Assembly (NCBI RefSeq): GCF_000733765.1
Contig: NZ_JPOG01000001.1
Span: 558,001 to 622,000, forward strand
DNA: 64,000 nucleotides
DNA from: Algiphilus aromaticivorans DG1253
GTDB taxonomy: Bacteria; Pseudomonadota; Gammaproteobacteria; Nevskiales; Nevskiaceae
Direction: 5' to 3'
The notes beneath the pieces are model-generated. The model ran no database searches. It was not told the DNA's origin and saw only the letters and a program-made list of their open reading frames with translations. Positions 4,412 to 60,237 of the stretch are shown one piece after another (positions within the stretch are counted from its first letter, which is position 1; each line of letters opens with the position of its first letter). Both the position numbers and the translations under genes were made by a program.

Positions 4412-4834
4412 ATGGCCGAAGAAGAACAGCAGCTGCCCGACATCCGTCTCGACGGCGAGCAGCTCTATCGCGAGGACAATTTCACGGACCGCCGGGTCGG
4501 TACGCTGCGCCGGCTGACGCCGGTTACCAGCGACGGTTCGGACGATCCTTCCCGGAGCGTCGTCTTCGAGGGCCAGGCCAGCCTGATGACGCCGGGCGGC
4601 GCGCTACCGCTGCACTTCGAGATCGAGGCGACGAGCATCGAGGAGGCGCTGGCCAAGTATCCGGAGGTCGCACAGCAGGCGCTGTTGGAGACCCTCGAGG
4701 AAATGCAGCGCATGCGCCGCGAGCAGCAGGGCAGCGGCATCATCGCGCCCGGCCAGGGCGGCGGTGGCGGCATGGGCGGCGGCATGCCGGGTCAGGGCGG
4801 CGGCATGCCCGGCGGCGGCAATATCCAGCTCTGA
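4412..4834 (+). CDS. hypothetical protein with Gly/Met-rich tail
   Basis: A 140-residue protein I do not recognise. The first 100 residues are acidic and soluble (MAEEEQQLPDIRLDGEQLY), with two likely beta strands around a segment SLMTPGGALPLHFEIEA and a helix rich in Glu and Gln (ALLETLEEMQRMRREQQG). The last 35 residues are low-complexity repeats of GGGM and GQGGGMPGG. No signal peptide or membrane segment. The start at 4412 is preferred over in-frame ATGs at 4349 and 4376 because the segment from MAEEE onward is protein-like. It may be co-transcribed with the ABC exporter that starts 76 bp downstream. Confidence 0.65.
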   Translation: MAEEEQQLPDIRLDGEQLYREDNFTDRRVGTLRRLTPVTSDGSDDPSRSVVFEGQASLMTPGGALPLHFEIEATSIEEALAKYPEVAQQALLETLEEMQRMRREQQGSGIIAPGQGGGGGMGGGMPGQGGGMPGGGNIQL

Positions 4835-4910
4835 GGCCACCGACGATTCCCGCCATCGGCGCGCGTCGGCGCGCATGCCGCGCGTCGGTCGTCCGCTCGC
4901 GTGATTCGCG

Positions 4911-6758
4911 GTGAGTCCGCCCGCTTCCTACGGTGAAGCGGAAAACGCCTCGCTGCTGACGCGCAGCCTGGGTGTCTTCCGCTACACGCGACGTGCACTG
5001 GAGCTGGTCTGGAGTACGTCGGCGCCGCTGGGCATCGCCCTCGGTCTGCTGACGCTGGTGGCCGGTGTGCTGCCGGCCACCGCGGCCTGGGTCGGGCAGC
5101 TCATCGTCGACTCGGTGGTGGCGGCCATCGAGGCGCGCGAGGCCGGCGAGGCCGTCGACTTCCGCACGCCGCTGCAGTGGGTGGCACTGGAAGGGCTGAT
5201 CATGGTGGGCATCGCCGGCGCCCAGCGCGGCATCGCGGCCTGCCAGTCGCTGCTGCGCGCGCTGCTGGGTCAGCGCGTCAACGAGATGATTCTCGACAAG
5301 GCCGGGCAGCTGTCGCTGGCCCAGTTCGAGGATTCCGAGCTCTACGACAAGCTCACGCGCGCCCGGCGCGAGGCCTCCCAGCGGCCGCTGGGGCTGGTCA
5401 ACAAGACCTTCGGCCTGATCCAGAACGGCATCTCGCTGATCAGCTTTGCCGTGATCCTGGTGCAGTTCTCGCCCTGGGCGCTGCTGATCCTCGTCGCCGG
5501 CGCCCTGCCGGTCTTCGCGGCCGAGGCGAAGTTCTCCGGCGACGCCTTTCGACTGTTCCGCTGGCGCTCGCCCGAGACGCGCATGCAGATGTATCTGGAG
5601 ACGGTCCTGGCGCGCGAGGACAGCGTCAAGGAGGTCAAGCTCTTCGGCCTCGGTCCGCTGCTGCTGGGCCGCTACCGCGATATCTTCAAGCGTCTCTACG
5701 GCGAGGATCGCGCGCTGACGCTGCGCCGCGAGGGCTGGGGCTTCGGGCTGGGCATCATCGGTTCCATCGCCTTCTACGGCGCCTATGCCTGGGTGGTGGT
5801 CGATGCGGTGCGCGGCCGCATCTCGCTGGGCCAGATGACGATGTATGTCGCGGTCTTCCGGCAGGGGCAGGCCGCGGTGTCGGCGATGCTGACCGCCATC
5901 AGCGGCATGTACGAGGACAATCTCTACCTCTCCAATCTCTACGAGTATCTGGAGGAGCCCACCGGCGCCGAGACGGGCTGGCGCGAGCAAGGCGTCGCGC
6001 CGGGCGACGGCGTGCGCTTCGAGCACGTGGCCTTCCGGTACCCGGGGGCGCAGGCCGACGCGCTGTCGGATGTCAGCTTCCACCTGCAGTCGGGTCAGAG
6101 CCTGGCACTGGTCGGCGCCAATGGTTCCGGCAAGACGACGCTGATCAAGCTGCTGACGCGCCTCTACGAGCCGAGCGCCGGCCGTATCCTGCTCGACGGC
6201 AGTCCGCTGGGCGAATGGAAGCTGGACGTGCTGCGTCGGCGCATCGGCGTCATCTTCCAGGATTTCATGCGCTATCAGATGCAGGTGGGCGAGAACGTCG
6301 GCGCCGGCGATGTCGCCGCCTTCTCCGACGAGGCGCGCTGGCGGCGGGCGGCCGAATTCGGTCAGGCCGATGTCTTCATCGAGCAGCTGCCGGCCGGTTA
6401 CGCCACGCAGCTCGGCCGCTGGTTCCGCGACGGCCAGGAGCTGTCCGGCGGGCAGTGGCAGAAGATCGCGCTGGCGCGTGCCTTCATGCGCGAGGAGGCC
6501 GACATCCTCGTGCTCGACGAGCCGACCGCTTCAATGGACGCCCAGGCCGAGGCCGACATCTTCCAGCGCTTCCGCGACTACGCGCGCGGGCGCATGACCA
6601 TCATCATCTCGCACCGTTTTTCGACGGTGCGCATCGCCGATCACATCCTCGTCCTCGAGGGTGGCTGCGTCGTCGAATCCGGCACCCACGACAGCCTGAT
6701 GGCCGACGACGGCCGCTACGCGCATCTCTTCCGGCTGCAGGCGCGCGGCTATCAGTGA
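4911..6758 (+). CDS. ABC exporter, fused permease and ATPase
   Basis: Homodimeric-type ABC exporter half-transporter in the inner membrane, 615 residues. About six membrane helices occupy residues 25-320, followed by the nucleotide-binding domain. Visible motifs: Walker A GANGSGKTT, Q-loop FQDFMRY, signature LSGGQWQ, Walker B ILVLDEPTAS and H-loop ISHRFST. The start is a GTG at 4911 (MSPPASYGEAEN) with a weak ribosome site. The substrate is unknown; the domain order matches MsbA/multidrug/peptide-type exporters. Its end overlaps the convergent membrane-protein gene by 7 bp. Confidence 0.92.
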   Translation: MSPPASYGEAENASLLTRSLGVFRYTRRALELVWSTSAPLGIALGLLTLVAGVLPATAAWVGQLIVDSVVAAIEAREAGEAVDFRTPLQWVALEGLIMVGIAGAQRGIAACQSLLRALLGQRVNEMILDKAGQLSLAQFEDSELYDKLTRARREASQRPLGLVNKTFGLIQNGISLISFAVILVQFSPWALLILVAGALPVFAAEAKFSGDAFRLFRWRSPETRMQMYLETVLAREDSVKEVKLFGLGPLLLGRYRDIFKRLYGEDRALTLRREGWGFGLGIIGSIAFYGAYAWVVVDAVRGRISLGQMTMYVAVFRQGQAAVSAMLTAISGMYEDNLYLSNLYEYLEEPTGAETGWREQGVAPGDGVRFEHVAFRYPGAQADALSDVSFHLQSGQSLALVGANGSGKTTLIKLLTRLYEPSAGRILLDGSPLGEWKLDVLRRRIGVIFQDFMRYQMQVGENVGAGDVAAFSDEARWRRAAEFGQADVFIEQLPAGYATQLGRWFRDGQELSGGQWQKIALARAFMREEADILVLDEPTASMDAQAEADIFQRFRDYARGRMTIIISHRFSTVRIADHILVLEGGCVVESGTHDSLMADDGRYAHLFRLQARGYQ

Positions 6759-13470: not shown

Positions 13471-14849
13471 CCGCGCGCAGCGCAGCGGCCCTCGCCGAGC
13501 AGACTGGCGGCCTTCTGGAGGGCGCCGACGTGCCCTTCGAAGCCGTGGTGACCGATAGCCGTGCCGTGACTGCCGGCGATTGCTTCGTTGCGTTGTCCGG
13601 GCCACGCTTCGACGGCCACGACTTCCTACAGGATGTCGCCAATGCCGGTGCCGCTGTCGCGCTGGTGGCGCGCAGCGCGGCAGTGTCGCTGCCGCAGGTG
13701 CGTGTCGCCGACACCCTCGACGCGCTGCAGGCCTGGGCGGCTATTTGGCGCAGCAACTTCGCGCTGCCGGTTGTCGGTATCACCGGAAGCAACGGCAAGA
13801 CCACGCTGCGCGCCATGTGCGAAGCCGTGCTGGCGCCGCTGGGGTCACTGCTGGCGACGCGCGGAAATCTCAACAATCACATCGGCCTGCCGCTGACGCT
13901 CTGTGGCCTGCGCGAGAACCACGCTGCAGCGGTTATCGAGATGGGTGCCAATCACCGCGGCGAGATCGCTCAGCTCGCGGCTATCGCCCGGCCGGACATC
14001 GGCATCGTCAGCAATGCGGGCGACGCACATCTGGAAGGTTTCGGTTCGCGCGACGGTGTCGCCCGGGGCAAGGGCGAACTCTTCGCCGCGCTACCGGCGT
14101 CGGGCACCGCCATCATCAACGCCGACGACGCCTATGCCGGTCTCTGGCGCGAGCTCAGCACGGCCGGTCGGCAGCTCGCCTTCGGGCTGGACGTGGCGGC
14201 CGATGTCACGGCGCGCGATATAGCGCAGGAGGCCGACGGCAGTCGCTTCAGGCTGGTGCTGCCGGACGGTGAGGCCGCCGTGCGCCTGCCGCTGCCGGGA
14301 CGGCACAACGTGCGCAATGCGCTTGCCGCCGCGGCCGCGGGCCACGCGCTGGGCCTCGACGCCGAGATCATCGCTGCCGGGCTGGCCGCCACAAGGGCGC
14401 CGGCCGGTCGCCTTGCGCCGGTGGCCGCGCGCGGCGGCGCCCGATTGATCGACGATAGCTACAACGCCAACCCGGCCTCACTGGCCGCGGCTATCGACTG
14501 GCTGGCAACGATGCGCGGCCACCGCGTGCTGGCGCTGGGCGATATGGCCGAGCTTGGCGAGGCGGGTCCGGCGCTGCACGCTGAGGCAGGCCGCGCTGCG
14601 CGCACAGCCGGTATCGAGAGCCTGCTTGCCGCAGGCCCGCTGGCAGCCCGCGCTGCAGAGGCTTTCGGCCCCGGCGCAGAGGTTTTCGACGACGCCGAGG
14701 CGCTGGCTGCGGCGCTGCGTGCGCGGCTGCAGTCGGATTGGATCGTGCTGGCCAAGGGCTCACGCGCGGCCGGCATGGAGCGGGTCGTGGCAGTGCTGCG
14801 CGAAAACAACGTGTCGACGGGGGAGACCGATGCTCTACCACCTCACTGA
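13467..14849 (+). CDS. murF: UDP-MurNAc-tripeptide:D-Ala-D-Ala ligase MurF
   Basis: Adds D-Ala-D-Ala to complete the UDP-MurNAc-pentapeptide. 460 residues with ATP loop ITGSNGKTT, an N-terminal substrate-binding domain ([15 protein letters not shown]), [12 protein letters not shown], and the C-terminal [12 protein letters not shown] block typical of MurF. Its last 20 bp overlap the mraY start, the longest overlap within the cluster; a GGGGGAGA ribosome site for mraY lies inside the murF frame. Confidence 0.97.
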
Positions 14850-49784: not shown

Positions 49785-49894
49785 GCCCGGGTAGCTCAAT
49801 GGTTAGAGCAGCGGCTTTATAAGCCGACCCGTCCTTCGGACGGCTTCGCCAGATCAGCGACAGGTTGCCGGTTCGAATCCGGCCCCGGGCACCA
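49785..49894 (+). tRNA. tRNA-like gene, apparent anticodon UAU, with enlarged variable region
   Basis: Acceptor GCCCGGG/CCCGGGC pairs perfectly, D stem GCTC/GAGC, anticodon arm GCGGC-TTTATAA-GCCGA (anticodon UAU, reading AUA as Ile), T arm GCCGG-TTCGAAT-CCGGC, and an encoded ACCA end. The segment between anticodon stem and T stem is 39 nt instead of about 5, and includes a stable hairpin CCGTCC-TTC-GGACGG. Total length is 110 nt. It may be a functional oddity, an interrupted gene, or an element-borne tRNA; it starts the accessory operon that follows. Confidence 0.65.
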
Positions 49895-49918: not shown

Positions 49919-50395
49919 GTGACTTCCATTCATCGGCTTACCCCCGACACCGCGCGCGCCCTTGCGGGCGGGCGTGCGCTCGCGTTTCTCGTCGACTATC
50001 GACATCCTGGCTTAGCAGATCACACCTTCACGATCGTCGGCTTTCTCGACTCGCAGTCCTTCGAGGGAACCCTCGTTCCCGACGACGATCCGGAGTGCGA
50101 GCTCGTCCGGTGTGAGCTGCCGCTCGGACCCTGCTTCGTTGCCGAGACATCTCTCGAGTCCGCCGACGCCCGCGCCGTTCATGAACTGTGGGCATCCTGG
50201 ACCGGCGGCGTCCACGAAGACTACCTGCGGCTTCTCGATTTTCTGGCGAGCGCACGCGCGCGAGCGCGGTTGATGACGGCGCTTGCGGCAACTGAGACCG
50301 ACGAGAAGCCGAAGAAGAAGTCGCGCACCGCCGCTCGGAACCCGAGCCGAAGGGCGCGCAAAGCGAAGCGTGCGGAGAAGGGGAGGCGGTCATGA
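49919..50395 (+). CDS. hypothetical protein with basic tail
   Basis: 158 residues from a GTG at 49919 with GGAG 8 nt upstream; the longer frame crosses the tRNA-like gene. The first 120 residues look like a folded mixed domain (ALAGGRALAFLVDY, VGFLDSQSFEGTLVPDDD, AVHELWASWTGGVHEDYL). The last 35 are Lys/Arg-rich (KPKKKSRTAARNPSRRARK), suggesting nucleic-acid contact. No known family. First gene of a run with 4-bp overlaps. Confidence 0.7.
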   Translation: MTSIHRLTPDTARALAGGRALAFLVDYRHPGLADHTFTIVGFLDSQSFEGTLVPDDDPECELVRCELPLGPCFVAETSLESADARAVHELWASWTGGVHEDYLRLLDFLASARARARLMTALAATETDEKPKKKSRTAARNPSRRARKAKRAEKGRRS

Positions 50396-50892
50396 GCGAA
50401 CGCAAGCCCCCACACCCCGGCGACATCTACGCGCGCGAGCGCGCCAACGTCGCCGCGCTCAAGGCCGCGTACCCGCACCAGTTTCCAGAGCCGTACTGGG
50501 CGTACGGCTGGCCTGACGGCTGGCATCGCCTGGTCGTCGAAGCCTGCGCGGGTCTCGCTCGTCACAGCCCGCAAGGCCACTGGCTGCAGATCAAGGAGAA
50601 GTTCGGAGGCCTGCGTCTGTACTACGACGGCGGCCCGCTACGCCTTGACCTGCAAGCCGCCGACGGCGTGCACTGCATCGCCTTTAGCCCTGGCGGTGGC
50701 CTGGTCGAGCCCACCGATCTCAACGCTTTGATCTCCGGGCTTGAGAAAGCCAGCCGTGAAACCTGCTGCCTGTGCGGCGGCGTACAAGGTACCGGCCGAG
50801 CCGTGTGCTTCTCGGGTTGGTGGCTGACCGCGTGTGAGACCTGCGAGCCCTTGATCCGCGCCCATCGCGCCCTCCCGCCGGGGGAGCGTTGA
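50392..50892 (+). CDS. zinc-ribbon-like protein of the KEKFG group
   Basis: 166 residues. The segment WLQIKEKFGGLRLYYDG followed by a C-terminal CxxC...CxxC pair (CCLCGG and CETC) recurs in small phage and plasmid proteins of unknown role; I know no named family. The spacing of cysteines suggests a zinc ribbon. Overlaps the previous gene by 4 bp and is 3 bp from the next. Confidence 0.7.
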   Translation: MSERKPPHPGDIYARERANVAALKAAYPHQFPEPYWAYGWPDGWHRLVVEACAGLARHSPQGHWLQIKEKFGGLRLYYDGGPLRLDLQAADGVHCIAFSPGGGLVEPTDLNALISGLEKASRETCCLCGGVQGTGRAVCFSGWWLTACETCEPLIRAHRALPPGER

Positions 50893-50895
50893 GCC

Positions 50896-51657
50896 ATGAA
50901 GATCCGCATCTACTCGGGCCTGCACCTCGAGTTCGGGCGCTTCGACTCACCGTTCACCGAGTGCGGAGACGAGGAACTCGTGATCCTGGCCGGCGACATC
51001 GCTGGCGGCACCGACGGCGTGGCATGGGCCGCACGCATGTTCCCGCACGTACCCGTGGTCTATGTGCTCGGGAACCACGAGTTCTACGGGCAGAACTTCG
51101 ACACCTTAGTGCAGGAGTGCAAGATCGTTGCTCAGGGCTCGAATGTGCATGTCCTCGAGCGCGACGTCTACGACTACCAGGGCGTCTGCATCCTCGGCAC
51201 CACCTTGTGGACCGATTTCGCGGTCTACGGAGAATCGCGCATCGAGGAAGCGATGGACTGGGCCGGCCAGGCCATGAACGACTTCTGCTTGATTCAGAAG
51301 CAGGGACGTGTCTTGACGTCTCTGCATACGAAGGAGACCTTCACGACGAGTGCTGACTGGCTCGATCGCCAGATTGCGTCCGCCGATCGACCCGTCCTGG
51401 TGGTCACGCACCATGCGCCAACGCTGGCGACGATGTCTCCGTACTTTAAAGAGCAAATCAGCAACGCAGCCTTTCACTCAAACGCCCAGCATCTCCTCCG
51501 AGCGCCGGTGCGAATGTGGATCCACGGCCACACGCACTACAACGCAGATGCGCTCGTCAACGGCGTGCGTGTCACCTCGAACCAATGGGGCTATCCGGAC
51601 GAGAACATGCTCGGGTTCCGGCGGGACGGAGTGTTCATCCTGGACGCACGGCCATGA
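50896..51657 (+). CDS. metallophosphoesterase with altered first metal motif
   Basis: 253 residues of the calcineurin-like fold. Motifs II-V are normal: LAGDIAGG, LGNHEFY, VVTHHAPT, IHGHTHYN. Motif I, normally S-D-L-H, reads S-G-L-H: Gly8 (GGC at 50917-50919) replaces a metal-binding Asp, a one-base change from GAC. One metal site may be impaired. Relatives occur in phages and plasmids. Overlaps the next gene by 4 bp. Confidence 0.88.
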   Translation: MKIRIYSGLHLEFGRFDSPFTECGDEELVILAGDIAGGTDGVAWAARMFPHVPVVYVLGNHEFYGQNFDTLVQECKIVAQGSNVHVLERDVYDYQGVCILGTTLWTDFAVYGESRIEEAMDWAGQAMNDFCLIQKQGRVLTSLHTKETFTTSADWLDRQIASADRPVLVVTHHAPTLATMSPYFKEQISNAAFHSNAQHLLRAPVRMWIHGHTHYNADALVNGVRVTSNQWGYPDENMLGFRRDGVFILDARP

Positions 51658-52604
51658 GCGAGTCAGCGACTCAGCATGTCGTGCACTGGCACGAAGGCAA
51701 ACCTGGGCGTGTCCTCATCGTTGGCGACATCCACGGCGAGTTCGAGATGTTCCAGCGCCTGCTCAAGCTCGCCGAATTCGATGAACGCCGCGACTTCGTC
51801 TACGCATTGGGCGATCTCGTCGATCGTGGCCCCGATAGTCGAAGGGTGCTGGACTGGTTTGCCCACGACTACGGCCGCGCCTCATTGATGGGCAACCACG
51901 AAGCGCTGATGCTGGGTGCGGCCAACGACTGGGACACGTCTCGAATCTGGCAGCGCAACGGCGGAGGCTGGGCTTTCGACCTGGGGCCCACGATGGGGTA
52001 CCTGTACCGCTGCATGCTGCGCGGGTTCCCGATGACCGCCGAGATTCGGTACGGCGAGCATTTGCGCGTCGGCCTCGTACACGCAGAGGTGCGTGCGGGC
52101 GTGGCGTGGTCGTGGATGAGCAAGGTGCGCCTTCAGAGCGGCGACGCTACGAGGGACTGGAGCCCGACGAACTCCGCCGGCGCCATCTGGGGACGATCCA
52201 GATTCCGCGCCGATGACCTCTTGCGAACACAGCACATGGTCGACCTCGCGGCGGATCGCAAGGTTTCGGTGTGGCGCTGCATTCAGCCGGTCAGGGGGAT
52301 CGACTGGGTGATCTGCGGTCACACGGTCATTCCCGACGGCATTCCGCGAGGACGCGGCAACGTGCTGTGGATCGAGACCGGGGCCGCCTATGGGGGACGC
52401 CTGACCGCAGTCGATCCGCTCGCGCGTGTCTATTGGCAGGTGGGTCGCGATAACGAACAGTGGGGCCCCTTGCCCTGGCCCGAGTTCGAGCCCGTCTTGC
52501 CAGCCTGGAAGCCGACACGCAAGGAGATTGAGAAAGCCAAGGAGATCGGGGCCAGCCACAAGGCGAAGCGGCTTGAAGCGTTTCGGCTGATGGGATTCGG
52601 ATGA
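51654..52604 (+). CDS. PP2A/lambda-phosphatase-like metallophosphatase
   Basis: 316 residues of the serine/threonine phosphatase (ApaH/PrpE-like) group: VGDIHGEF near 24, LGDLVDRGPDSR near 50, MGNHEALML near 79 and the His in VICGHTVIPDG near 225. All metal ligands appear present, unlike its upstream neighbour. Substrate may be a phosphoprotein or dinucleotide. Start 51654 gives an ATGA overlap; the longer frame from 51516 lies inside the previous gene. Confidence 0.92.
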   Translation: MSESATQHVVHWHEGKPGRVLIVGDIHGEFEMFQRLLKLAEFDERRDFVYALGDLVDRGPDSRRVLDWFAHDYGRASLMGNHEALMLGAANDWDTSRIWQRNGGGWAFDLGPTMGYLYRCMLRGFPMTAEIRYGEHLRVGLVHAEVRAGVAWSWMSKVRLQSGDATRDWSPTNSAGAIWGRSRFRADDLLRTQHMVDLAADRKVSVWRCIQPVRGIDWVICGHTVIPDGIPRGRGNVLWIETGAAYGGRLTAVDPLARVYWQVGRDNEQWGPLPWPEFEPVLPAWKPTRKEIEKAKEIGASHKAKRLEAFRLMGFG

Positions 52605-56504: not shown

Positions 56505-56836
56505 GATTAGGCCCCGTTATCACGACTATTGCTGGGCAGGGCGCTCAACTATCCCACCCAAGGCCTTCAACTTGAGGCGCCGAATCGGTCTAGATAGCAC
56601 TTCCAAACTGCGCGTTACCTTTGCTAGCGCTGCAGGCGACATGTGAGGGCGCCCCTATCACGGGCAGAACATGCGTGATGCACTAAACGCAGAAACCTAG
56701 TGTCCTGTAGCTACGGGTGATGACGTCAGGCTATTCACCTGAGTGATGGCGCTCATTACTGCAATCGGGTTCACTTATATCGCTGCTTCACTGATTCTCC
56801 TCTCGCAGTACACAACCACGCGGAGGAGATTCGATA
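56505..56836. other. intergenic region upstream of the aromatic-transport operon
   Basis: 332 bases with no convincing gene. They contain two palindromes, TGACGTCA (56721-56728) and TCACCTGAGTGA (56735-56746), which could be regulator sites, and a ribosome site GGAGGAG before 56837. No clear -35/-10 pair. Confidence 0.5.
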
Positions 56837-57808
56837 ATGAGCCGTCGCGCGCCATTGGCGCCCCATCTTGGATTGCCCAGCGCGATCGTGGTTGTCTTCG
56901 CGTCGGTTGCCGCCTTTTCGCCAACCGTTCATGGCGCCGCGGACGTTGCTGACGACCTGCAGAAAATTGCCTCCAATGGCCAGGTCATGGTGGCTGTCGG
57001 CAATGACGTGCTGTCCCGTTCGACCGATTCCGGCAAGACCTGGGAGGCGCAAAAGCTCGAGGAGCGGGCGGCGCTGATTGACGTCGCGGCTTGCGCTGAC
57101 GAGAGCTTCGTTGCGCTCGACTTCCATCGTCATGTCTGGACCGGGGACGCACAAGGTAGCGGTTGGCGCCTCGCCGAGGGCTCCATGCCCGAGGACTTCA
57201 CCCCTATGGCCTTGGCATGTGCGCCGGACGGTGGATTCTGGGTGGTCGGAACCTATTCCACGGTGCTGCATAGCAGCGATCGCGGAGCGAGCTGGCAGAA
57301 GACCGAGTTCGGCGAGGACGCGATCCTCACCACCATCCGTTTCCTCGACGCCGACCACGCGGTTCTTGCCGGAGAGTTTGGCATCGTTGCGCGCAGCAGT
57401 GACGGCGGCGCCAGCTGGCAGATGCTGCCCCCCGTTCCGGACGATTTCTACGCTTTCGACGCCTGGTTCACAGACACCGATACCGGCTGGCTGACGGGCC
57501 GCGGCGGAATCATCCTCGGCACCCGCGATGGCGGCCATAGCTGGACATCGGAGCCGAATGCCGCCGGTGTGCCGATGTACGGCTTTCTGTCGGGCGGTCA
57601 TGGCCACCTGTTTGCCGTTGGCGAACTCGGTTTGGTCCAGCAGCGCGGATCCGACGGCACATGGCGGGTCCTGCCGAGCCCCACCTCGGGCAGCGGTTAC
57701 CTGCGCGGCGGTATCGCCGTGCCGGAGCGCTCGTCCCTCATCGTGGTCGGCGGTTCCGGCGCCAGCACGCCAGCGATGGTGAGCATCGAACCGCAGGGGG
57801 TCCAATGA
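56837..57808 (+). CDS. YCF48/BNR-repeat protein
   Basis: 323-residue predicted periplasmic beta-propeller, with a signal or anchor segment (LPSAIVVVFASVAAFSPTVHG) and Asp-box repeats SSDRGASW, SSDGGASW and TRDGGHSW. YCF48-like proteins recur beside RND and DUF1302/1329 genes in aromatic- and steroid-degrading bacteria; function there is not known. ATGA overlap with the transporter. Confidence 0.88.
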   Translation: MSRRAPLAPHLGLPSAIVVVFASVAAFSPTVHGAADVADDLQKIASNGQVMVAVGNDVLSRSTDSGKTWEAQKLEERAALIDVAACADESFVALDFHRHVWTGDAQGSGWRLAEGSMPEDFTPMALACAPDGGFWVVGTYSTVLHSSDRGASWQKTEFGEDAILTTIRFLDADHAVLAGEFGIVARSSDGGASWQMLPPVPDDFYAFDAWFTDTDTGWLTGRGGIILGTRDGGHSWTSEPNAAGVPMYGFLSGGHGHLFAVGELGLVQQRGSDGTWRVLPSPTSGSGYLRGGIAVPERSSLIVVGGSGASTPAMVSIEPQGVQ

Positions 57809-60237
57809 TCCGCCAGAAGATAATCGCCGCGCTGCAGCGGGGCGAAGAGTGGATTTTTGCCAGCCCGCGCTTCGTGCTCGCGCTGATTCTCGGTCTGTCG
57901 GCGTTCTTCGCCAGCCAGATCCCCGGCATGAAGATGGCGTCGGATTTCGAGGACCTCCTGCCGCAGCAGCATCCCTATATCCAGCTGCATAACGAGGTGC
58001 GCGGGATCTTCGGTGGCGCCAATGTCATCACGGTTGCGGTGGAGGTCGAGCAGGGCACGATCTTCAACAGCGAAACACTCGCCGCGATCGAACGCATCAC
58101 CCAGGGCATCGACATGCTGCCCGGCGTCAATCACAACCTCGTGGCCAGCATCACCCATCGCACGACGCGCCGCGTTTATATCAACGAGGCCGGCACGATC
58201 CGCTCCGGTCCCTACTATGACCCTAATGCCGAGACCCTGACGGCGGCGCAACTCAAGGCCTTGCAATCGCAGGTGCAGGCGGACCCGCGCGTCAGCGGAC
58301 GCCTGGTGTCGGCCGATGGCAAAGTGGCGATCATCCGGGCACAGATGAACAGTTCGACCTCCGACGAACTGATCGAGGCCTTCGCCGGGCTGCAGAAAAT
58401 CCGCGAGGCGGAAGCACGCGACGGCCTGCGCATCCATGCGGTCGGAAACCCGGTGCTGACCGGCTGGGTTTACACCTATCTGCCGCAGATCGTCGAGATT
58501 CTGCTGTACACCGCGGCCCTGATTGTCCTGTTGCTGGCGGGATACTTCCGCCGCCTCTACGGCATCGTGCTGCCCTTGCTGGGCATTCTCCTGTCCTCGG
58601 CATGGGGCCTGGGCTTCATGAATCTGGTCGGCATTCATCTCGATCCACTGTCGATGCCGATACCCTTTCTGATTGCCGCCCGTGCGACCTCACACGGGGT
58701 GCAATTGGTCGAACGCTACTACTACGAACTGGCGCGCACCCAGAACGGTCGCCAGGCTGCACGCAATGCATTGGACGCGCTGTTCCGCCCGGGCTCGCTG
58801 GCGATCATCGTCGACGCCATCGGTATCGCCGCGGTAGCGATCGGTGCGGCGCCGTTCCACAAGCATCTCGGCGCCTTTGCCGGCTTCTGGGCCTTCTCGG
58901 TGATCTTCACAGTGCACTTCATGGTGCCGCTGGCGCTGACCGTGCTACCGCAGCCCCGGCGCACCGAGAACAGCCGCGACCAGACTTCGGCGACGCTGCA
59001 CCGGATAGTGGAGCCGGTCTCCAGCCCCGGCGTCGGCCGTGCGGTGCTACTGGGCGCCCTGGCGCTGGTGGGGCTGGGCGCATGGGGTGCGACCCAGGTG
59101 CAGTTCGGAGAGTCCGAGCCTGGATCACCGATTCTTCAGCGTGACCACGACTACAACCGCTCGGCGCACCTGATTTCGGAGCGCTTCCCCGGCAGCGAGG
59201 AGTTGTTCGTGGTGGCTCGCTCCAGCGAACGCGAGGGCCTGCGTAGTCCTGAGGCGATGGCAGCCATGGAGAAGTTCGAGCGCTACATGCTCGAAGAGCC
59301 GGTGGTGGGCGGCGCCAAGGGCCTCCCTGACCTGGTGAAGCAGGTCAACCGCCTGACCCACGAGGGCGATCCGCGCTGGCTGCAGATTCCCGGAGATGCG
59401 CGCGGCGTCGGCAGCCTGATGTACGCCTTTGAGTACTCCAGCCCGGTACCCGGAGCCCTGCGTGAGTACGTCAACCCCGAGGAGACGCTGGCCAACCTGA
59501 GCTTCTACCTGCCGGATCTGCAGGCCAAGACGATCGAGGCGGCGGTGCAGCGCGCGAAGCAGGGCGCCGAGCTTTTCGGCAAGGGCATCGAGGGCTTCAC
59601 GATCGAACCGGCGGCCGGTGTCGTCGGCGTCAACGCCGCGATCAACCAGGCTAACTTCCATGACAGTGTCGTGGTCACGGCCTTCGTGCTGATCGCATCG
59701 TTCCTGATGGTGGCGATCTACTACAACTCGGCGCACGCCGGCTGGCTGATGATCCTGCCGATGATCTTCGCCACGGTGCTCAGCTACGGCTATCTGGGTA
59801 TCGCCAACGTCGGCATCAACGTCAACATCATTCCGGTGGTCGCGGTGGGAATGGGCGTAGGAGTCGACTACGCGATCTACGTCATGGACCGCGTTCGCGA
59901 CGAGATCGAAAAAGGCCGCAATCTCTCCGATGCCGTGGCGCATGCCATCAGCACCACCGGCCTCGCGGTGATGTTTACCGCCGCGACCCTTGTCGCCGGT
60001 GTGGTCATGTGGGTGTTCTTCTCAGACCTGCGCTTTCAGTCCTCGGCCGCACTGCTGCTGATTGTGATGCTGGTGCTCAACGCCATCGGTGCGATGGTCG
60101 TGGTGCCCGCCTGGATTCTCGCTTTCAGGCCGCGTTTTGTCACGGTGTCCTTCGCACACACCGGGGCGGTTTCCAGCGAAGCCCGATCACCGGATCTTTC
60201 CGAGCCTGGCTGCAGCCGCCAGGCGCTCACCGAATAG
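57805..60237 (+). CDS. RND/MMPL superfamily transporter
   Basis: 810-residue inner-membrane protein with two repeats, each of a membrane helix, a periplasmic domain and a five-helix bundle. Blocks: DFEDLLPQQHPY after helix 1, PFLIAARATSHGVQLVERY in the first bundle, VAVGMGVGVDYAIYVMDRVRDE in the second. The charged G-x-G-V-D-Y motif is the proton-relay region of MMPL proteins. Likely exchanges hydrophobic compounds with the outer membrane via the DUF1302 and DUF1329 partners. Confidence 0.93.
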   Translation: MIRQKIIAALQRGEEWIFASPRFVLALILGLSAFFASQIPGMKMASDFEDLLPQQHPYIQLHNEVRGIFGGANVITVAVEVEQGTIFNSETLAAIERITQGIDMLPGVNHNLVASITHRTTRRVYINEAGTIRSGPYYDPNAETLTAAQLKALQSQVQADPRVSGRLVSADGKVAIIRAQMNSSTSDELIEAFAGLQKIREAEARDGLRIHAVGNPVLTGWVYTYLPQIVEILLYTAALIVLLLAGYFRRLYGIVLPLLGILLSSAWGLGFMNLVGIHLDPLSMPIPFLIAARATSHGVQLVERYYYELARTQNGRQAARNALDALFRPGSLAIIVDAIGIAAVAIGAAPFHKHLGAFAGFWAFSVIFTVHFMVPLALTVLPQPRRTENSRDQTSATLHRIVEPVSSPGVGRAVLLGALALVGLGAWGATQVQFGESEPGSPILQRDHDYNRSAHLISERFPGSEELFVVARSSEREGLRSPEAMAAMEKFERYMLEEPVVGGAKGLPDLVKQVNRLTHEGDPRWLQIPGDARGVGSLMYAFEYSSPVPGALREYVNPEETLANLSFYLPDLQAKTIEAAVQRAKQGAELFGKGIEGFTIEPAAGVVGVNAAINQANFHDSVVVTAFVLIASFLMVAIYYNSAHAGWLMILPMIFATVLSYGYLGIANVGINVNIIPVVAVGMGVGVDYAIYVMDRVRDEIEKGRNLSDAVAHAISTTGLAVMFTAATLVAGVVMWVFFSDLRFQSSAALLLIVMLVLNAIGAMVVVPAWILAFRPRFVTVSFAHTGAVSSEARSPDLSEPGCSRQALTE

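Follow-up and report, generated by a model that had tools for sequence, protein, structure and literature searches.

What is the function of a tRNA gene in which a long additional stretch lies between the anticodon arm and the T arm? This question is raised by a 64-kb stretch of the Algiphilus aromaticivorans DG1253 genome (the window), which contains such a gene on the plus strand at 49785-49894. A textbook tRNA has a single anticodon, which serves the codon and in many cases the synthetase as well. The gene described here belongs to a family in which a second arm, resembling the anticodon arm of tRNA-Ile(GAU), is located downstream of the arm carrying the UAU anticodon.

Anatomy of the window gene

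The gene at 49785-49894 has a complete cloverleaf, the anticodon UAU and an encoded CCA end, as the sequence-only reading had stated; Rfam confirms it with a match to RF00005 (tRNA) at 49785-49891 (62.8 bits, E 3e-11, gathering score 29). ARAGORN reported zero tRNAs in a scan of the whole 64-kb window and thus missed the gene. The 5´ strand of the 7-bp acceptor stem (49785-49791) pairs with 49884-49890, and the 3´ strand together with A73 and CCA occupies 49884-49894. The D arm (49794-49809) contains U12-A23 and is followed by arm 1, the putative decoding arm (49811-49827), which has four pairs, a G27.A43 mismatch and the loop UUUAUAA with U33 and the anticodon UAU. The T arm has 5 bp and is located at 49867-49883.

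Between arm 1 and the T stem lie 39 nucleotides. This unusually long stretch, with a hairpin closed by a UUC loop, had been noticed in the sequence-only reading and taken for a 39-nt variable region; the length is correct, the nature of the region is different. It consists of a spacer hairpin with 6 bp and a UUC loop (49829-49843), a second anticodon-like arm that had been overlooked (arm 2, 49846-49860) and a class I variable loop of 5 nt, AGGTT (positions 44-48 of the tRNA, 49862-49866). Arm 2 has a 4-bp stem, TCGC/GCGA, which includes C29-G41, and the 7-nt loop CAGATCA, keeping G34, A35, U36 and A38, with C at position 37. Folding of the single sequence gives both extra hairpins as well. 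The spacer hairpin is present in the long members of the family, with varying stem letters, and missing from most short members; the conserved part of the insert among the relatives is the second hairpin, arm 2.

A family on phages, plasmids and chromosomes

The relatives of the window gene constitute a widespread, apparently undescribed family of two-armed tRNA-Ile genes borne by phages and plasmids. Our collection from phages, plasmids and chromosomes comprises 117 places with 91 distinct genes, and arm 2 was parsed in 90 of them. Seven of 99 other genomes match over the whole gene with 73-92% identity; the gene of G014 (locus L266) is 92% identical to the window gene, and an eighth carrier genome (G037, locus L025) was recognised from the locus sequence. 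Ten records of Xanthomonas plasmids match the window gene along its full length and two further records, from Alteromonas plasmids, were matched by a phage-type query. According to the PLSDB typing, seven of these 12 plasmid records are conjugative and three are mobilizable. E. coli genomes searched with one phage-type query gave zero matches.

In the phage collection, 44 records among the 60 matches listed cover at least three quarters of the phage-type query, and they are labelled tRNA-Ile (42) or tRNA-Arg (one) or carry no label (one). Three of these records were examined at the sequence level, as was the gene of phage DLP6, which is labelled tRNA-Ile-TAT and in which arm 2 reads ACCGC-CAGATTA-GCGGT; the available excerpt of the DLP6 paper (PMC5349666) gives a tRNA count and leaves the two-armed gene undiscussed. 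ARAGORN labels many of the two-armed genes plain tRNA-Ile(tat) and misses 16 of the 117 places, all of them genes of 98-108 nt without CCA. Public phage records already give these genes as tRNA-Ile, and what is new here is the second arm and its meaning.

A search pattern describing arm 1 only found 50 stretches in genome contigs: 38 two-armed genes, nine ordinary one-armed genes and three that could not be parsed (L044, L066 and L071). The two-armed genes on genome contigs were assigned by title to Pseudomonadota, Planctomycetota, Nitrospirota, Bacteroidota and Verrucomicrobiota; some of the records are metagenome bins, whose contigs may be of viral origin. In viral contigs the same pattern found 41 stretches, of which 21 are two-armed, 13 one-armed, six unparsed and one long without arm 2 (L108). 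Two of the six unparsed viral stretches, L104 and L110, are cut or broken two-armed genes. With a pattern naming both arms, 63 viral stretches were found.

Several members deviate from the common form. Plasmid p66_OSU778 carries a second, diverged two-armed gene (L034, 1326-1428) with a full 5-bp arm 2 stem, CGCGC/GCGCG, which ARAGORN labels tRNA-Ile(gat), taking arm 2 as the anticodon arm. Two two-armed genes (4826-4913 and 6349-6438) lie on one Kiloniellaceae contig (L068), separated by 1.4 kb. A related gene in L261 has a degenerate D arm, with both arms, the T arm and the acceptor intact. At 14535-14630 of the viral locus L108, arm 1 and the tRNA stems are present and a different hairpin with a longer stem replaces arm 2. 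In L093 the arm 2 loop is TGGACTG, which is off the family pattern.

Structure and covariation of the two arms

RNAalifold recovered both arms unprompted from an alignment of 45 genes, and the whole structure of these genes beats all 500 shuffles and all slid versions. The stems of the tRNA body are nearly perfectly paired (acceptor 100%, D 99.4% and T 99.6% of the cells), and the acceptor and T stems of the family comprise 7 and 5 pairs, respectively. Arm 1 directly follows position 26 and has the stem GCGGN/NCCGU and the loop UUUAUAN or CUUAUAN; its pair 31-39 is broken in 23 of the 45 genes.

The stem of arm 2 covaries. Its 7-nt loop contains GAUAA, like the loop of tRNA-Ile(GAU), but mostly lacks U33. 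Pair 29-41 is C-G in all 45 genes. The two pairs next to it vary: 30-40 is G-C in 42, C-G in two and A-U in one gene, and 31-39 is C-G in 30, A-U in 11 and U-A in four, with changes on both sides in three and 15 sequences, respectively. The outer two pairs are mostly unpaired (36 and 41 of 45), which rules out that arm 2 is a 5-bp stem in every member. The 3´ end of arm 2 joins a class I-type variable loop of 4-5 nt in most genes, and the tertiary pair 15-48 covaries, being A-T or G-C in 87 of the 90 parsed genes (A-T 63, G-C 24, other 3; the counts ignore relatedness).

The UUAUA core of arm 1 had been written into most of the search patterns, and its constancy in those scans is therefore a selection effect. 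A scan in the reverse direction used only arm 2 and the T loop and gave 106 viral matches, 71 of which combine a perfect T stem with an acceptor stem; UUAUA is located upstream in all 71. Only two matches with a T-like stem are devoid of UUAUA (L254 and L257), and both are also devoid of an acceptor stem. A tighter arm 2 pattern found 21 stretches, 20 of which were already known with arm 1 and one of which is unrelated (L177). With covariation and conservation of this kind in arm 2, we reject decay of a normal tRNA as an explanation. The sequence-only reading had named, as a finding that would refute it, relatives that carry the gene without the insert and show simple decay; the relatives found here keep the second arm, with covarying stems. 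Taken as a whole, these genes very probably represent a real tRNA family with a second, Ile-type anticodon arm.

Isoleucine identity determinants

The bacterial Ile identity set, as listed in the table of a review, consists of A73, C4-G69, U12-A23, G16, U20, U21, C29-G41, C/G34, A35, U36, A37 and A38 (PMC9976931); at position 12-23 the review is inconsistent, the table giving U12-A23 and the text U12-G23. For comparison with this set we used 53 distinct genes from the arm-1-only scans (the strict set), in which arm 2 was parsed blind to the loop letters; 52 of them could be parsed. An earlier parse had favoured loops with GAT, and the loop-blind parse gave identical counts. A larger set of 60 genes includes eight from whole-gene similarity or the window itself.

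In arm 2 the determinants are almost invariant: C29-G41, G34 and A35 are present in all 52 parsed genes, U36 in 51, and A37 and A38 in 50 each. All of them together (C29-G41 and GAUAA) are found in 49 of 52 genes of the strict set and in 55 of 60 if the similarity relatives and the window gene are included. U33 is present in arm 2 of only five of the 52 genes. The full determinant set is found in arm 1 of none of the 60 genes, since arm 1 has G29-C41 and U34; A38 is present there in 16 of 60. One-armed UAU tRNAs mostly retain A38 (17 of 22), whereas the two-armed genes show it in seven of 80 arm 1 loops. In the tRNA body, A73 was found in 59 and U12-A23 in all 60 genes. Two features of the Ile set are not generally present, C4-G69 being found in only 30 of 60 genes and G16 in one of 91.

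Among tRNAs from the same loci that are neither Ile nor CAT, 46 of 623 have C29-G41; of the ordinary tRNA-Ile(GAU) there, 16 of 26 have it, so the pair is not universal in tRNA-Ile(GAU). With the IleRS letters in arm 2 and the decoding letters in arm 1, most members have no arm that would suit both tasks. Position 37 of arm 2 is C in the window gene and U in two close relatives (L002 and L059, the latter identical to L003); thus t6A could not form in the arm 2 loop of these copies. The CAGATTA loop of phage DLP6 is a further departure from the common letters.

TilS in carrier genomes

If arm 2 enables charging by an IleRS of the lysidine-requiring type, two-armed genes are expected in hosts with TilS and one-armed UAU genes in hosts without it. 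TilS (TIGR02432) was found above the cut-off in 39 of 41 two-armed carrier genomes searched; including G001, which is without a two-armed gene, the tally is 40 of 42, the exceptions being G120 (weaker match) and G129 (none). In the same scan, one of ten genomes with one-armed UAU genes has TilS above the cut-off, namely the one with the unparsed L066, and five others have weaker matches. The contrast is significant (Fisher p 1.7e-7; for the arm-1-only scan of genome contigs alone 30/32 versus 1/10, p 1.2e-6; relatedness ignored), and it is drawn from few clades and some partial genomes. Since the ten one-armed genomes are by title mostly Chloroflexi and Clostridia, several of them bins of unknown completeness, we regard it as support and not as proof.

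A tRNA-Ile3(UAU) in place of Ile2 has been reported for 17 bacterial genomes (PMC8450103), and tRNA-Ile(UAU) is described from TilS-less bacteria whose IleRS accepts UAU (PMC4013482, PMC8450103, PMC4810244). Evidence against AUA reading by a plain UAU arm is that on E. coli ribosomes the UAU tRNA of M. mobile was reported not to read AUA preferentially (PMC4014445); arm 1 may thus depend on modification of U34 or on another aid.

Viral context and AUA codons

The viral two-armed genes are found in tRNA arrays: 60 of 66 viral loci contain further tRNA genes, with five or more in 41 of them. Among the 23 viral loci with at least 15 tRNAs, tRNA-Ile(GAU) is present in 19 and an Ile2-like CAT gene, recognised by a rough rule, in five. 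By the same rough rule, Ile2-like CAT tRNAs were found in 11 of all 66 viral loci, which are contig pieces, so that absence from a locus is unproved. This coexistence leaves the idea of the two-armed gene as a strict substitute for tRNA-Ile2 unsupported. In the 19 viral loci with one to four other tRNAs, the companions include Arg(UCU) in ten and Leu(UAA) in nine. The codons AGA and UUA, which belong to these two tRNAs, and AUA are rare in many GC-rich hosts. In 32 hand-chosen loci of the 66, including L108, which has no arm 2, AUA accounts for 4-35% of the Ile codons. Such a location within phage tRNA arrays is more in keeping with a tRNA that decodes AUA than with a decoy or a replacement for a tRNA attacked by nucleases.

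The island of the window and its host genome

The surroundings of the window gene support the earlier suggestion that it is island-borne: the gene lies among remnants of Tn3 and IS elements and cargo genes, and relatives are located on plasmids and in phages. The island contains a Tn3 transposase fragment, IS30-type and IS256-type transposases, a Prok-JAB protein, an XRE-type regulator, two calcineurin-like phosphoesterases, an NT5C/DUF2442 protein and a HigB-like fragment. Four plus-strand genes follow the tRNA gene. The one right after it (49919-50395, the frame being read from 49919 with an uncertain start) encodes a protein without Pfam family, whose homologue in L266 (G014) has 35% identity and the same place. 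It is followed by a second protein without Pfam family (50392-50892, 65% identity in L266) and by the two phosphoesterases, both PF00149, at 50896-51657 (homologues near the two-armed gene in L266, L274, L045 and L078) and 51516-52604 (homologues in L266, L273 and L274). In G014 the two-armed gene is thus followed by the same four genes, with proteins 35-65% identical. Altogether, phosphoesterase homologues were found near two-armed genes in five of the 63 loci searched (L266, L273, L274, L045 and L078). In two Xanthomonas plasmids, pXCV19 and p66_OSU778, a "3'-5' exoribonuclease" is annotated as the following gene, and in a third plasmid the following gene is a different one.

In the stretch compared, G003, assigned to another genus of the family, shares 97% DNA identity with the window only over 56689-59923; this block adjoins the right-hand transposase of the island. 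An empty-site comparison with G003 did not reveal the left border of the island. Elsewhere in the window, a TPP riboswitch was found at 1389-1485 (65.3 bits).

The host has its own Ile2-like CAT tRNA (L186) and TilS. Among the genes of the host assembly (G000), 16S rRNA, tRNA-Ile(GAU) and tRNA-Ala(UGC) were not found, and all three are probably part of an rRNA operon missing from the assembly. AUA accounts for six of 79 Ile codons in the island versus 35 of 651 in the remaining window; we see no enrichment and have dropped this argument for the window island.

A possible division of labour between the arms

The two-armed gene probably serves translation as a reader of AUA. How the two arms would contribute can be deduced from their letters with less certainty. 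We lean towards a mechanism in which arm 1, with UAU, U33 and A37, would read AUA on the ribosome, and arm 2, as a copy of the part of tRNA-Ile(GAU) that is read by IleRS (C29-G41, G34, A35, U36, A37 and A38), would act as the charging handle, no lysidine being needed. With such a gene, a phage or plasmid could supply a tRNA for AUA without using TilS, in hosts whose IleRS requires lysidine at position 34 and rejects a plain UAU anticodon. The gene would be transcribed, charged with isoleucine via arm 2 and used on AUA codons via arm 1, and each arm would have to be presented to its own partner. Position 26 leads straight into arm 1, and arm 2 leads straight into the variable loop; with these junctions each of the arms could stack under the D stem, and the molecule may switch between the two arrangements. 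That charging (3´ arm, GAU, IleRS) is split from decoding (5´ arm, UAU, ribosome) in this family, making it a natural tRNA class of its own, is a reading we favour only by a narrow balance.

This mechanism is argued for the family and is less sure for the window copy, because of C37 in its arm 2, the low AUA use of the island and the CAT tRNA and TilS of the host itself. As to the origin of the family, a fusion of a tRNA-Ile(UAU) with a tRNA-Ile(GAU) would be fitted by the U33 that is kept in arm 2 of some long members with spacer hairpin (L042, L060, L081 and L091), but this is speculation.

Alternative explanations

The gene might also be an ordinary UAU tRNA-Ile in which arm 2 is an extended variable arm that provides stability or binds another host factor, and charging would then occur via arm 1 or independently of an anticodon loop. 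One-armed UAU tRNAs do exist, and class II tRNAs commonly have long variable arms (PMC7609411). However, a class I-length variable loop and the 15-48 pair are already present after arm 2, the arm 2 loop has 7 nt with GAUAA, C29-G41 is fixed while the adjoining pairs vary, and A38 is mostly lost from arm 1, unlike in one-armed UAU tRNAs; we therefore consider an extended variable arm unlikely. A bait function appears quite unlikely as well. Here, arm 2 would attract a host nuclease directed against the anticodon loop of tRNA-Ile and thereby spare the tRNA-Ile of the element or of the host, which would agree with the location of the genes on phages and plasmids and with an arm 2 that resembles the loop of tRNA-Ile(GAU) and, having no U33, is usually unable to decode. 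Such a bait would leave unexplained why arm 1 is strictly UAU (71/71), why the genes are placed in tRNA arrays, why A73, CCA and U12-A23 are conserved and why the TilS contrast exists.

Removal of arm 2 and the spacer after transcription would leave a plain cloverleaf, that is a UAU tRNA of normal size, and the sequence-only reading had suggested a tRNA that is interrupted and processed. This suggestion is not supported, since a conserved arm lies within the insert and Rfam yields no group I intron: at the gathering threshold Rfam reports the tRNA only and no intron family at the site, and the insert of just 34-39 nt also speaks against a group I intron. The insert is moreover located outside the anticodon loop, and the loop letters of arm 2 are conserved beyond the needs of a removed piece, so that excision is highly improbable. 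Also improbable, if not quite to that degree, is that the window copy on its own is a decaying relic of the two-armed family. C37 in arm 2, the 27-43 mismatch in arm 1, the unraised AUA use of the island and the adjoining transposase remnants could be read in this way, but its acceptor, D, arm 2 and T stems and the CCA end are all intact, and the G014 gene is still 92% identical within a syntenic block whose proteins are only 35-65% identical.

Comparison with known tRNAs and implications

The two-armed genes share features with several known tRNA types and differ from each of them. Bacterial tRNA-Ile(UAU), known as tRNA-Ile3 and found for example in Mycoplasma mobile, likewise has UAU, U33, A37, A73, a 7-bp acceptor and a 5-bp T stem and is the expected AUA reader, but tRNA-Ile3(UAU) has a single anticodon arm, and the two types differ in how often TilS occurs among their carriers, as given above. 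With tRNA-Ile(GAU) the genes have in common the GAUAA loop letters in arm 2 and often C29-G41, whereas their GAU-type arm mostly lacks U33 and is located 3´ of the UAU arm. AUA is also the codon expected for tRNA-Ile2(CAU, lysidine), which depends on TilS, while U34 is encoded in the two-armed gene. Class II tRNAs (Ser, Leu, Tyr) have an additional arm 5´ of the T stem too; in the two-armed genes, however, this arm has a fixed 7-nt Ile-type loop and is followed by a class I variable loop. Allo-tRNAs (8/4 or 9/3) are similarly non-canonical, and some are reported to carry UAU (PMC7609411); the 7/5 acceptor/T stems of the two-armed genes rule out this assignment, and A73 and the Ile features likewise set them apart. 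In an open-access library, as far as titles and abstract openings go, we found no description of a tRNA with two such anticodon arms.

If the separation of charging and decoding can be shown, the two-armed genes would be a new kind of tRNA. With arm 2 as the synthetase handle, the two jobs would be separated within one RNA, and the mutual dependence of IleRS recognition and codon reading would become directly accessible. Such a separation would also account for the way in which phages and plasmids supply an AUA reader independently of the host's lysidine pathway, and it could provide a template for tRNAs with a free choice of codon.
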